Source: a virus. Taken from it: 37,085 nucleotides of DNA. The stretch lies in the IMG/VR virus record IMGVR_UViG_3300007511_000059, positions 1-37,085 of that record. One strand, given 5' to 3'. Of the stretch, positions 4,614 through 14,092 are shown piece after piece (the first letter of the stretch is position 1; each line of letters begins with the position of its first letter). The translations under genes were made by a program, and so were the position numbers. Under the pieces are notes generated by a model. That model was not told the DNA's origin, ran no database searches, and saw nothing but the letters and a program-made list of their open reading frames with translations.

Positions 4614-5186
4614 ATGAATTCTAAAGAGTACATTATCATTCATCATTCAGCTGTTTCTAGGGATAAGAACAATGAACAGTTTGATGCAGTTAAGCGGTAT
4701 CATATCGGTAAAGGCTGGGGGAATATCGGGTATCATTGGTTCATAGAACCTGATGGAACAATAAAAAAAGGAAGGAAAGAAAACGAGATAGGTGCACATT
4801 GTAAGGAGAAATGGATGAACTATCGAAGTATCGGTATATGTTTAGCTGGTCATTTTGATTTAGAAGAACCAACAACTGAACAGCTAGAAGCGTTACAAGA
4901 GGTTATTCATAATCTCAAACTACAATATAAAATAGATCCTAAGAGTGTAAGGCAACACCATTTTTATGCTGGATATAAATCCTGTCCAGGTAAGAACTTA
5001 CCCATTGATGTTATCCAACAAATAGCTAAAGGTGAATATATCGCAGAGAAAGTATCACCATGGGCTAGGTTAGCAGTACAATTTTGCAAAGAACAAGGTA
5101 TCGCAAAGCGATGGGATTTGCCACAGAATCCTGTGACAAAAGAAGAGATGGCTGTTATGTTGTATAGATTGTACAAGATTAAATAA
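4614..5186 (+). CDS. N-acetylmuramoyl-L-alanine amidase (Amidase_2/PGRP fold) with SLH-like C-terminus
   Basis: Residues 5-130 match the zinc amidase fold that cuts between N-acetylmuramic acid and L-Ala of peptidoglycan. IIIHHSA (residues 7-13) holds the first zinc histidine, VRQHH (112-116) the second and SCPG (123-126) the cysteine ligand; SIGICLAGHF (72-81) is the usual core strand. Residues 148-188 (SPWARLAVQFCKEQGI then PVTKEEMAVMLYRL) resemble one S-layer-homology repeat, a cell-wall anchor. No signal peptide is seen, so export would need a holin or signal-anchor partner. An AAGGAGG lies about 23 nt upstream, too far to be an ordinary ribosome site. It is the probable endolysin, or a wall-degrading virion enzyme. 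Confidence 0.93.
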   Translation: MNSKEYIIIHHSAVSRDKNNEQFDAVKRYHIGKGWGNIGYHWFIEPDGTIKKGRKENEIGAHCKEKWMNYRSIGICLAGHFDLEEPTTEQLEALQEVIHNLKLQYKIDPKSVRQHHFYAGYKSCPGKNLPIDVIQQIAKGEYIAEKVSPWARLAVQFCKEQGIAKRWDLPQNPVTKEEMAVMLYRLYKIK

Positions 5187-10926: not shown

Positions 10927-11002
10927 AGCACTTAAGTTAAATAATAAATTAAAAAAATATATAAAATTAAATTATTAAGAATTAGCCCACTCTAAATTTT
11001 CT

Positions 11003-11083
11003 TTATATATTGGAAGTAATACCTGCTTCTTTTGAACTTATCTTTGTAATCTTTGAACCAAATTTTGACGTGTAAGCTTTCAT
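11003..11083 (-). CDS. Possible first leftward ORF (26 codons)
   Basis: ATGAAAG at 11083 is preceded by ATATTTCTTAAT plus 9 nt, the leader block shared with several genes, and lies about 30 nt after the leftward promoter at 11120-11148. The frame gives only 26 residues (MKAYTSKFGSKITKISSKEA and six more). Other frames downstream also look protein-like (one ends LPIYKENLEWANS), so the gene may be broken by a frameshift. Low confidence. Confidence 0.3.
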   Translation of the reverse strand: MKAYTSKFGSKITKISSKEAGITSNI

Positions 11084-11119
11084 GATTAAAAAATTAAGAA
11101 ATATTTATTGTCTAACTCC

Positions 11120-11148
11120 AGCATAGCAAACCAAAACATACTTGTCAA
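11120..11148 (-). promoter_or_regulatory. Leftward early promoter
   Basis: On the minus strand TTGACA (11148-11143), a 17-nt spacer and TATGCT (11125-11120) with an extended -10 TGC just before it. Transcription should start near 11113 and run into the leftward operon. Confidence 0.7.
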
Positions 11149-11167
11149 TAGTAAATTAAACTTTTTG

Positions 11168-11195
11168 TTGACATGAATATTAATTAATATATAAT
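11168..11195 (+). promoter_or_regulatory. Rightward promoter for a short RNA
   Basis: TTGACA (11168-11173), a 16-nt spacer and TATAAT (11190-11195): a consensus sigma70-type promoter. The transcript would begin near 11202, immediately before a hairpin, and meet a terminator about 75 nt on. Confidence 0.7.
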
Positions 11196-11201
11196 AAGAT
11201 T

Positions 11202-11281
11202 GCACCAAGTATTATTAAGTTAATGCTTGGCGTTATAATACCATAGAAAATAGCCCGTAGAAATGCGGGCTGTTTTGTTAT
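11202..11281 (+). ncRNA. Candidate small RNA, about 80 nt, with intrinsic terminator
   Basis: Downstream of the consensus promoter the RNA would fold into CCAAGTATTA/TAATGCTTGG (11205-11214/11221-11230, with one U-G pair that favours the plus strand). It ends in AGCCCG/CGGGCT (11252-11257/11266-11271) followed by GTTTTGTT, a standard intrinsic terminator. No significant ORF is inside. It could be a regulatory or attenuated leader RNA of the control region. The fold was read by eye. Confidence 0.55.
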
Positions 11282-11284
11282 ATT

Positions 11285-11323
11285 AGCAAAAACCCCATGA
11301 ACACACGGCCTGGGGTGATTGCT
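11285..11323. promoter_or_regulatory. Strong hairpin in the divergent control region
   Basis: AGCAA (11285-11289) and ACCCCA (11292-11297) pair with TGGGGT (11311-11316) and TTGCT (11319-11323), leaving a symmetric AA/GA internal loop. The block that follows, ATTTCTTAAC plus CC before ATGAAAA at 11342, copies the gene-leader element but opens only an 8-codon ORF. On the minus strand the hairpin lies in the leader of transcripts from the 11390 promoter. Its role is not known. Confidence 0.5.
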
Positions 11324-11361
11324 ATTTCTTAACGGTGTCCCATGAAAAAAACACCATTTAT

Positions 11362-11390
11362 AATATAAAGCTTGTTAAAAGATCTGTCAA
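11362..11390 (-). promoter_or_regulatory. Second leftward promoter
   Basis: On the minus strand TTGACA (11390-11385), a 17-nt spacer and TATATT (11367-11362). Its transcript would cross the hairpins at 11323-11205 before reaching the leftward genes. Confidence 0.6.
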
Positions 11391-11408
11391 GAAAAAAGTA
11401 TTTAGGTA

Positions 11409-11437
11409 TTGACTTTTATATTTTGGTATGATATAGT
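11409..11437 (+). promoter_or_regulatory. Rightward promoter of the replication operon
   Basis: TTGACT (11409-11414), a 17-nt spacer and TATAGT (11432-11437) preceded by TGA as an extended -10. Transcription would start near 11444, giving a leader of about 130 nt before the replication initiator gene. This promoter is almost back to back with the leftward one at 11362-11390. Confidence 0.7.
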
Positions 11438-11459
11438 GGAGATACAAAAATATTTTAAT

Positions 11460-11555
11460 CGTCACACAATGAATTTTTCATTATCACCAATGAGCGGCAA
11501 TCAACAACTTTCAGAAAACTGTGACGGTTTTTATTTTTGTGCGTTGATTGTCGCT
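11460..11555 (+). promoter_or_regulatory. Interleaved terminator-like stems (attenuator or pseudoknot) ahead of the replication genes
   Basis: Stem I pairs CGTCACA (11460-11466) with TGTGACG (11520-11526), followed by GTTTTTATTTTT. Stem II pairs AGCGGCAATCAAC (11493-11505) with GTTGATTGTCGCT (11543-11555), 13 pairs including one G-U, followed by TTTTTG. The arms alternate (I, II, I, II), so the stems form a pseudoknot or compete, and each is followed by a T-run like an intrinsic terminator. A 32-codon ORF covers the same bases. Confidence 0.6.
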
Positions 11556-11567
11556 TTTTGTAATTAA
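11469..11567 (+). CDS. Candidate leader peptide (32 aa) covering the attenuator
   Basis: ATG at 11469 opens MNFSLSPMSGNQQLSENCDG and then a hydrophobic, Cys-rich end (FYFCALIVAFCN), stopping 6 nt before the initiator gene's ATG. It is preceded by TTAAT with 14 nt to the ATG, the usual start element here. A ribosome moving through it would open the stems and could relieve termination, and could also re-initiate on the next gene. It may also be only a chance ORF. Confidence 0.4.
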   Translation: MNFSLSPMSGNQQLSENCDGFYFCALIVAFCN

Positions 11568-11573
11568 TTAATT

Positions 11574-12308
11574 ATGGATAACGGATGGATAAAACTTCAC
11601 AGAGATCTTTTAGATAATGCTATAATTGAAAAACCTGAATATGCATGGCTTTGGTGTGTTTTACTTTTAAAAGCTAATCATAAAACAAAAACATTTATAT
11701 GGAATAATAATAAAACTGAATGCAAAGAAGGACAACTGTTGACAAGTAGGAAAAAACTTGCTGAAATAACATGTTTTTCAGAGAGTAAAATTGAAAGAAT
11801 TTTAAAATACCTCGAAATCGAACAGCAAATCGAACAACAAACAACCACTAAATATCGGCTTATAACAATAATTAATTGGGAAAAATACCAAGGCAACGGA
11901 CAGCAAAACGGACAACAAGTGAACAACAAACGAACAACAAACGGACACAAACAAGAATGTAAAGAATTAAAGAATAAAGAAAAAATATATAAAAAAGAAA
12001 AAGCTTTGGAAAAGAAAAGCTTTGGTGAGTTTGTATTGTTAACAGGTGATCAATATCAAAAGCTAATAACTAAGTTTGGTAAAAAATTGATAGATGAATA
12101 TATTGATAAGCTTAATTTGTATATAGGAACTAAGGGAAGAAAATATAAAAGTCATTATCATGTAATTCAAAGCTGGTTAAAAAAAGAAGAGGTAGATTTT
12201 TATAAAGAAATAAAATCTTTAGGAGCAATTAGTTTTTCAGAAAAACATGCTGATAAGTTTGCTAATGAAGAGGAATGTGATAAATTTATAAATAAATTTC
12301 TTAATTAA
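11574..12308 (+). CDS. DnaD-type replication initiator / replisome organiser (244 aa)
   Basis: The N-terminus (GWIKLHRDLLDNAIIEKPEY, then WLWCVLLLKAN and EGQLLTSRKKLAE) is the winged-helix start typical of phage replication initiators with a DnaD-like architecture, ending ITIINWEKYQ near residue 103. A Gln/Asn-rich linker follows (about 104-125), then a basic segment and a helical C-terminal half with YHVIQSWLKKEE that resembles the DnaD helicase-loading tail. It would bind the phage origin and load the helicase encoded next. It is the first gene of the rightward operon, and the 592-residue primase-helicase begins 5 nt later. An origin may lie in or near the gene; I cannot point to iterons. 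Confidence 0.82.
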   Translation: MDNGWIKLHRDLLDNAIIEKPEYAWLWCVLLLKANHKTKTFIWNNNKTECKEGQLLTSRKKLAEITCFSESKIERILKYLEIEQQIEQQTTTKYRLITIINWEKYQGNGQQNGQQVNNKRTTNGHKQECKELKNKEKIYKKEKALEKKSFGEFVLLTGDQYQKLITKFGKKLIDEYIDKLNLYIGTKGRKYKSHYHVIQSWLKKEEVDFYKEIKSLGAISFSEKHADKFANEEECDKFINKFLN

Positions 12309-12313
12309 TAATC

Positions 12314-14092
12314 ATGACTAAAAAATTTTTACAACATTTCGTTAGTCCAATCTTTCAAACATTCAAGGATAATCAAAAAGCTAATGGTTATGCAAAGGTG
12401 TTTGATGTAAAAGATGAAGCTGAATTTGAGAAACTAAATAAAGCTGGATGTGGAATATATTTTACACCGAATGGATTTAAAGGAGGAAGAAAGATAGATA
12501 ATCTTGTTAAGCTTAATGCAGTATATGCTGATTTAGATTTAGCAAAAGAAGGCAATGGTTCTGTAACAATTGAAGAGAAAAAACCTTTAGTTAAAGCTTT
12601 AAGGGATAAGTTTGATCCTAATTTTATTATTGATACAAAAAATGGTATTCAACCTATATGGCTTATTGATGAAGATAAAATAGATAAAGAAGTTCAAGAT
12701 AAATATCGTAATGTGATTAATGGTATAATTGAATGGAGTAAAACAAAAGGAGCTATGGGAGATAAGGTAAAAGATGTTACAAGGGTTTTGAGATTGCCTG
12801 GATATTATCATATGAAGAATAAACCGTATCTTTGTAAAGTTTTTACTGCTCATGATAGAAAAGTTAAGCTTGATGATTTGAAAGAAAAGTTCCCGTATGA
12901 AGAAGATAGAATAGAAATAAAGTATAATAATAATTTTAAGAGAGGGCTTGTTTTACATGAGATTGATATGATAAATTTTCAGGAATTAGTTGTTAGAGCT
13001 TTTGCTAATGTAGGGAGAACAGCTAGTTTTGATAAACAAAATAGATTAATACTTGATGGTAGATTAACTGGTACTTTTCAAGGAAAGAATGGTGATAGAA
13101 ATTATTTAGCTAGTACAAGTCATGAACCGTTTAATGGTAATAGAATAACAGTTGTTGCAGATATTCTTGGATGTACGAACAAAGAAGCTTTTTCATGGAT
13201 TAAAGAAGAGTATGGATTGAAAGAAGATAAGTTAAAAACAAAGAAGCTTGTTAAAGAAATTAAAGAAGTAAAACCTAAAGCTTTAGATAATTATTATACA
13301 TGGGGAACCGATGAGCTTACTTGGAATTTTGCACCGATAAAACGTGATACATATACTGTTTTGGTTGGAGAAACAGGTGATGGTAAAACAACTTTTAGTT
13401 ATGATATGGCGATAAAGAATGCAGCTAGAGGACATAAAGTGTTGTATATTAGTTTAGAGATGAACACTCAGGAGATATATGAGAATATAGCAAGAAGTTA
13501 TTCTAAGATAACAATCAAGGAAGAAGTAACAAAAAAAATACCTGAAAGTAAAAAAGAATTATATAATAAAAAAATGGAAGAATTAAATAATATAAAAAAT
13601 TTAAAAACAAAGGGGATTAGGGGAAATGTTGAGATTAATTGGGATTATGTGAAAACAATCCTTGATGAAGAAAAGGAATTAGATTTAGTTTTTATAGATA
13701 ATCTTGATTTGATTATTGGAAATGATGGAGAGAAAGATTATGATAGGCAGAGAAGAATAAGTAGAGAGATATTAGCTTATACAGCACAAAGGCAAGTGCC
13801 AATATTTTTATTACATCATTACAAAAAGAGAGGTAAAAGTGGTGACTTAAGAACACTTGATGATATTAGTGGATCAGCAAAAATAACACATGATGCACAT
13901 AGAATTGTTATGTTGTTTAGAAAAAAATTAGAAGAAGCAAGTATGAAAGATAAAGCAAGTTTAAAGCTTTTTTTGATGAAGGCTAGAGGATACAATCAGT
14001 GTATTAAAACAATTTATTTTGATAAAGGAAGTTTTTATGATGAGTTTGTTGAAAGAAAAAAGAATGAGGATTTTTGGTGGAATATAAAATAA
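12314..14092 (+). CDS. Bifunctional primase-helicase: AEP-type primase plus DnaB-family (SF4) helicase (592 aa)
   Basis: The N-terminal 200 residues carry VYADLDLAKEG with Asp73-x-Asp75, the metal-binding pair of archaeo-eukaryotic-type primases, and DVTRVLRLPGYYHMKN (154-169), usual in this superfamily. Residues 325-590 form a RecA-like helicase domain: Walker A GETGDGKT (352-359), LYISLEM (377-383), Walker B DLVFIDNLDL (457-466), and LLHHYKKRG (499-507) with the following DDISGSAKI. It would unwind DNA at the fork and make primers. The genome has no DNA polymerase gene, so host polymerase is needed. It starts 5 nt after the initiator gene. Confidence 0.92.
   Translation: MTKKFLQHFVSPIFQTFKDNQKANGYAKVFDVKDEAEFEKLNKAGCGIYFTPNGFKGGRKIDNLVKLNAVYADLDLAKEGNGSVTIEEKKPLVKALRDKFDPNFIIDTKNGIQPIWLIDEDKIDKEVQDKYRNVINGIIEWSKTKGAMGDKVKDVTRVLRLPGYYHMKNKPYLCKVFTAHDRKVKLDDLKEKFPYEEDRIEIKYNNNFKRGLVLHEIDMINFQELVVRAFANVGRTASFDKQNRLILDGRLTGTFQGKNGDRNYLASTSHEPFNGNRITVVADILGCTNKEAFSWIKEEYGLKEDKLKTKKLVKEIKEVKPKALDNYYTWGTDELTWNFAPIKRDTYTVLVGETGDGKTTFSYDMAIKNAARGHKVLYISLEMNTQEIYENIARSYSKITIKEEVTKKIPESKKELYNKKMEELNNIKNLKTKGIRGNVEINWDYVKTILDEEKELDLVFIDNLDLIIGNDGEKDYDRQRRISREILAYTAQRQVPIFLLHHYKKRGKSGDLRTLDDISGSAKITHDAHRIVMLFRKKLEEASMKDKASLKLFLMKARGYNQCIKTIYFDKGSFYDEFVERKKNEDFWWNIK

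Follow-up and report, generated by a model that had tools for sequence, protein, structure and literature searches.

A leader RNA encoded directly ahead of the replication genes of a virus recorded in IMG/VR is, as we read it, fairly probably a cis-acting transcription attenuator that gates these genes, with a loop-loop contact as part of the switch. The whole record, 37,085 bases in length, was analysed and is referred to as the window. The leader contains two pairs of complementary arms in alternating order; their arrangement is not random, many other phages have it ahead of the same gene, and in the best-sampled family of such leaders all helices covary. From this layout we infer termination itself, the direction in which the contact would act, and a signal to which it would respond, be it a ribosome, a protein or another RNA. 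The features concerned are listed in Table 1. The first gene of the operon under the putative control, at first labelled an initiator gene, encodes a DnaD-like helicase loader instead, and is followed by the gene for the replicative helicase. Iteron-like repeats (GAACAACAA type) are present within the loader gene at 11815-11952, as well as at 1372-1521 of the locus L024, within the gene for a loader with 60% identity from a Clostridiales MAG, and likely mark a lambda-O-like origin within the gene. Elsewhere in the window, positions 4614-5186 encode an N-acetylmuramoyl-L-alanine amidase with a C-terminal tail that looks S-layer-homology-like by eye, which is a possible hint to the host envelope.

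Table 1. Positions in the window of the leader elements, the promoter and the controlled genes
Feature	Position	Strand	Basis
Promoter P2, extended -10 (TTGACT-17-TATAGT, TG before second hexamer)	11409-11437	+	Consensus scan
Alternative extended stem I (11444-11466/11520-11540)	11444-11540	+	Prefix folding, prediction only
Weak 5' hairpin P0 (AAAAAT 11446-11451/ATTTTT 11473-11478), arm I5' in its loop	11446-11478	+	Sequence; position as P0 of the family; alone p = 0.22
Arm I5' (CGTCACA)	11460-11466	+	Sequence; its partner is the only other copy in the window, both strands
Open reading frame of 32 codons across the arms, start element TTAAT 11455-11459	11469-11567	+	Good start element; poor codon content; no conservation among covarying leaders
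Arm II5', 5' side of terminator stem	11493-11505	+	Sequence, shuffle scan
Inner helix P2b (GAAAAC 11514-11519/GTTTTT 11527-11532) around arm I3'	11514-11532	+	Minimum free energy pairs; counterpart helix covaries in the family
Arm I3' (TGTGACG), 7-nt apical loop of terminator hairpin	11520-11526	+	Closed exactly by the 6-bp inner helix, p = 0.007
Arm II3', 3' side of terminator stem, then T-run 11555-11559	11543-11555	+	Sequence, shuffle scan
DnaD-like helicase loader gene, first of the operon	11574-12308	+	phrog_2514, E 2.6e-32
Replicative helicase gene (DnaB-like C-terminal domain), second of the operon	12314-14092	+	Pfam DnaB_C, E 7.7e-19; phrog_19, phrog_239

Stem I consists of seven Watson-Crick pairs and is followed by a T-run at 11528-11538, and stem II consists of 13 pairs, one of which is G-U; the alternating arms, the T-run behind each stem and the location of both stems between the promoter and the replication genes agree with the preliminary description in every coordinate. 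The stem loops exceed those of textbook terminators in length. Exactly one interleaved pair of T-tailed stems occurs on the plus strand of the window and none on the minus strand, and such a pair was found in none of 60 dinucleotide shuffles of the whole window and in none of 1000 shuffles of 10927-11573. Scanning with a strict descriptor that combines stems I and II, the inner helix and the T-run also returned a single cluster in the window, namely the leader; 40 shuffles gave none. With arms I and II taken as given, an inner helix of at least 5 bp anywhere has a p-value of 0.38, to be compared with that of exact closure on arm I3' (Table 1), and P0 is formed by six A-T pairs only. The predicted fold of the leader has a free energy of -30.4 kcal/mol, which was reached by none of 1000 shuffles.

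It had been proposed that the two stems exclude each other save as a pseudoknot. The topology is as proposed, and the covariation in related leaders described below points more exactly to kissing loops. As for the exclusion, it applies to the extended form of stem I, which is predicted to exclude stem II and to bury part of the leader start element, but not to the 7-bp core of stem I, which can coexist with stem II because arm I3' is exactly the apical loop of the inner helix. When the growing transcript was folded, the probability of stem I was about 1 up to position 11548 and 0.01 at 11555, from which point stem II was formed. Refolding alone was rejected as a specific sign, since 51 of 4000 sliding windows, most of them in other parts of the genome, switch in a similar way, although none of 1000 shuffles of the leader does.

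The strong promoter reported ahead of the stems was recovered by the consensus scan, and its transcript would start near 11444. P2 shares its spacer and the downstream sequence, as far as the TTAAT start element, with a leftward promoter at 11148-11120 (joint pattern, no match in 100 shuffles; alignment score 52 versus at most 40 in 1000 shuffles), which makes it probable that P2 is a genuine early promoter and has a divergent twin. The leader of the twin is unstructured (z +1.8), and the stems are therefore specific to the replication side. This result also bears on a role like that of the put RNAs of phage HK022, which the preliminary description had brought up and in which the RNA would bind the RNA polymerase and suppress downstream termination. 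The leader resembles putL and putR in being a structured RNA directly after an early phage promoter; however, the put RNAs are two adjacent hairpins common to both early transcripts (PMC9378689). They carry no T-run, whereas here the hairpin is followed by a T-run and is found in the rightward transcript only, so that the comparison is not supported and we regard a put-like function as very improbable.

The TTAAT start element is a real signal in this phage: TTAAY begins 12-18 nt ahead of the ATG in 23 of the 31 genes of the window, compared with 6% of all ATGs, and takes the place of the Shine-Dalgarno sequence, which is almost absent from these genes. The twin promoter also precedes a short reading frame, of 26 codons, at 11083-11003 on the minus strand, which has the start element at exactly 14 nt and is free of RNA structure. 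Upstream of P2, the plus strand carries at 11168-11280 a perfect sigma-70 promoter (TTGACA-16-TATAAT) followed by a two-hairpin RNA of ~75 nt with an intrinsic terminator end (z -6.7), which is likely an independent small RNA or a first attenuator ahead of P2. On the minus strand (11390-11250), a strong promoter (TTGACA-17-TATATT) reads leftward into hairpins and terminators at 11308-11285 and 11271-11252; the resulting transcript converges with the plus-strand small RNA, and the promoter possibly drives a second small RNA. Pairing of these upstream small RNAs with the leader, as predicted by RNA-RNA folding, was not above that of shuffles, and a search for the shared promoter motif in viral contigs returned one match, which was unrelated.

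Relatives of the loader were first collected by single-sequence search, and most of them were without such stems under the initial criteria. Searches with loader alignments yielded about 115 loci, in each of which the operon was followed upstream to its first gene and interleaved arms were scored. The order I5'-II5'-I3'-II3'-T-run-ATG was found in a large share of the 99 unique leaders, among them L059, copies of which (L009 and L010) had been present in the first search. Dozens of unrelated uncultured phages, the promoters being mostly of the Bacteroidota type, have such a leader in front of the loader gene or of its immediate upstream neighbour, and the loaders tested all match phrog_2514. 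The sequences of the arms vary yet remain complementary, with 17 distinct pairs in 29 leaders, and the spacing to the first gene is nearly constant in the family (I5' at about -105 to -98, II5' at -72 to -63, I3' at -52 to -45 and II3' at -36 to -25); the corresponding positions in the window are -114 to -108, -81 to -69, -54 to -48 and -31 to -19. In most leaders the terminator ends 16-28 nt ahead of the first gene, which leaves too little room for an intervening promoter, and the Bacteroidota -7 element TAnnTTTG lies directly upstream in 37 of the 41 leaders of the R1 family, versus 4% in the background. Leaders L045, L053 and L059 and the R1 leader L128 were sought in cultured phages, and none was found there.

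The association with loader genes is seen in two further counts. Of 53 phage genes with free upstream sequence, five have a T-tailed stem no more than 45 nt from their start; three of the five encode loaders, and another is the immediate upstream neighbour of a loader gene. In 1.75 Mb of loci, the strict descriptor returned 44 clusters, 32 of which were assigned automatically to a loader leader and ten more by inspection (about 42 in total), the latter in loci where the first gene had been assigned differently or not at all, while two lie elsewhere; since the loci had been retrieved through their loaders and are in some cases overlapping, the counts describe placement within such loci rather than frequency among phages at large. 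At L050 (1398-1484) and upstream of position 2498 in L076, the loader leader holds a single long nested T-tailed hairpin and not interleaved arms, and terminators before loaders thus have more than one form.

The structure of the family was assessed in a MAFFT alignment of 29 leaders, in which four helices were scored. In this alignment, 90.8% of the cells are paired and 25 of the 27 pairs have changed on both sides, although some of the leaders are near-duplicates and the cells overstate the number of independent events. The four-helix covariation score is 0.702, versus 0.233 for shuffled alignments (none of 500 reached it) and at most 0.123 for slid controls. All four helices covary, including the inner helix, and G-U pairs are among the changes. 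For helix I alone, eight of eight pairs have changed on both sides and the score is 0.647 versus 0.241. This helix pairs the loop of the 5' hairpin with that at the tip of the terminator hairpin, and is, as judged from the alignment, a kissing loop between the two. Because the arms had been found by complementarity in part of the set, we also made a hold-out, for which the covariance model R1 was built without helix I. The model detected 14 further loci with E below 1e-11, plus several weaker ones, and a loop-loop match of at least 8 nt is present in 15 of 17 held-out hits with E down to 0.7; in one of them, L080, the 8-nt match uses G-U pairs and is off the usual place. Taken singly the held-out matches are modest (shuffle P 0.04 to 0.36), and their weight comes from the agreement of positions with differing sequences. 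Covariation of the arms in related phages, which the preliminary description had named as its own check, is thus strongly positive at the level of the architecture. When Rfam 15 was searched at the gathering score, the window gave no match and 30 loci with or near leaders gave tRNAs only, and permissive scans gave matches at chance level only.

These data also speak to the reading of the inverted repeats as a DNA element, that is, a replication origin or a protein site adjoining the replication genes. G-U pairs are allowed by RNA only and their presence among the covarying changes argues against such an element; moreover, promoter and T-runs are on one strand only, and the iteron-like repeats sit inside the loader gene instead, making a DNA element the least credible of the explanations considered.

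The leader of the window itself belongs to this class by layout and position, but not by sequence profile. Its interleaved arms end in a T-run within 50 nt of the loader operon, and the inner helix of its terminator has arm I3' as the apical loop. On the other hand, the Bacteroidota-type R1 model has no match at this leader (its best hit in the window, with E of 1.7, is elsewhere, at 11210-11279), and the leader is therefore either a divergent or a convergent member. If convergent, its stems would make up a separate double terminator or a site for RNase III, with a mechanism unrelated to that of the phage family. The promoter of the window is of a different type from that of the family, and its inner helix and P0 are individually weak, as convergence would have it; but the gene, the order and spacing of the arms and the identity of the loop are all as in the family, and descriptor hits elsewhere amount to only about two per 1.75 Mb. 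We consider convergence unlikely, though it deserves to be kept in mind, and the leader of the window a probable divergent member of a class of kissing-loop leaders before DnaD-like loaders. The divergent leaders L045, L053, L059, L064, L075 and L125 bridge the gap in layout between the window and the R1 family. An interleaved leader is absent from the nearest loader relatives by sequence, L002 (45%) and L024 (60%); blastn found no direct homologue of the leader in phages or plasmids, and a pattern search with the exact arms gave two matches in coding DNA, both due to chance. Queries with the helicase and the portal protein found no relatives, and the terminase relatives are without a recognisable loader or helicase and without an R1 match.

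According to the attenuator reading, transcription from P2 would produce a leader of about 130 nt, the 3' part of which would fold into an intrinsic terminator hairpin, made of stem II, the inner helix and the T-run, immediately upstream of the helicase-loader gene. I3', which is the apical loop of this hairpin, would find its complement in I5', an upstream segment held in the loop of the 5' hairpin, so that loop and terminator would be tied by a kissing contact or, in the window, by a competing longer stem. The polymerase reaches I3' earlier than II3', so the contact can arise while the terminator is still open, and an early contact would bias the choice between stopping and reading into the replication genes. 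Since the kissing contact and the terminator can coexist, the effect of the former on termination is not obvious.

Alternatively, the loops may serve recognition in trans: a prematurely ended leader RNA, carrying both loops, would pair with the nascent leaders of other genome copies and enforce termination on them, which, if true, would mean control of copy number or immunity to superinfection. The 17 distinct arm pairs among 29 leaders resemble incompatibility specificities, and neither arm of stem I has a second copy elsewhere on either strand of the window, so that the partner in trans would be the leader itself. There is precedent in plasmid rep genes, which are under the control of kissing RNAs and of attenuation, and in which single loop changes alter the specificity (PMC10724649). 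However, pairing in cis explains compensatory change equally well, and no convincing antisense promoter was found within the leader, where the scan returned only a weak minus-strand promoter-like site (9/12) at 11481-11452. We regard pairing in trans as doubtful. Equally speculative is the wider idea of a widespread class of phage RNAs, in which an attenuated leader knows its own kind through a diversified loop-loop pair; if true, RNA-encoded 'incompatibility groups' would gate the transcription of replication genes without a separate antisense gene.

The preliminary description had favoured attenuation by a ribosome that translates a leader peptide. The 32-codon reading frame exists, with 6 nt between its end and the loader ATG at 11574, and a structured, attenuator-like leader gating the replication genes is supported; the peptide as its defining feature is not, as an ATG reading frame spanning the arms occurs in 7 of 41 covarying leaders, versus 7.9 expected from shuffles. 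The nearest model for ribosome control is the pyrBI attenuator of E. coli, with its UTP-dependent coupling of ribosome and RNA polymerase: a ribosome trailing the polymerase through the reading frame would unfold both stems, the T-run past stem I would provide a pause for the ribosome to catch up, and both stems would terminate when translation fails. Terminators in the first 100 bp of a reading frame normally escape the ribosome unless pausing couples it to the polymerase, as in pyrBI (PMC4824070); in the window, polymerase might pause in this way at the T-run that follows stem I. In sequence layout alone, the window shares with pyrBI a reading frame that crosses an intrinsic terminator directly ahead of the first gene and a T-rich pause upstream. 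Here the start element is at the consensus distance of 14 nt, a distance found at only about 1-2% of ATGs, and the predicted extended stem I buries part of it. Furthermore, spanning ATG reading frames are present in six of eight divergent leaders including the window, versus 2.1 expected, in a set that was hand-picked partly after the reading frames had been seen. Against this, the codon content is non-gene-like, similar to that of wrong frames (some short genes of the phage score similarly low), an open frame of this length has a chance of 0.23, and the leader peptide has no run of identical codons of the trp or his type. A search for homologues of the peptide gave a single match, in a DNA polymerase gene, by chance. 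In addition, pyrBI has no loop-loop pairing and is defined by its reading frame, which here is not conserved across the family. Ribosome-controlled attenuation thus appears rather unlikely as the general explanation; translation may modulate some leaders but is not the common mechanism.

Attenuators and pseudoknot leaders of replication genes are known kinds of control. The rep leaders of IncI, IncB and IncL/M plasmids, such as the repYZ pseudoknot of ColIb-P9, have a short leader reading frame and a pairing between a loop and a downstream segment before the replication gene, as the window does; in those plasmids, however, translation is switched on by the pseudoknot and control comes from a separate antisense RNA, whereas the paired loop of the leader is part of an intrinsic terminator. 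The attenuators of pT181 and pIP501 are alike in placing transcription attenuation ahead of a replication gene, but use an antisense RNA, and their pre-emptor pairs with the 5' arm of the terminator and not with its loop. Phage examples are the CI RNA of P4 and c4 of P1, which act by premature termination and have leader reading frames near the target; there, a separate RNA is processed from elsewhere in the transcript, and neither c4 nor any other Rfam family matches the leader. Among open-licence papers, we found no description of leaders to phage helicase-loader genes whose intrinsic terminator makes a kissing contact, through its apical loop, with a 5' hairpin.

The onset of phage replication is usually explained by protein repressors and antiterminators. 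The kissing-loop terminator leader has the look of an RNA-based control of phage replication that has so far gone undescribed: the RNA is structured, covaries strongly, stands ahead of the same helicase-loader gene throughout dozens of uncultured phages and is absent from Rfam 15. If so, the leader RNA would provide a handle on how replication is timed in phages whose hosts are uncultured Bacteroidota or other bacteria and, possibly, on immunity mediated by RNA.
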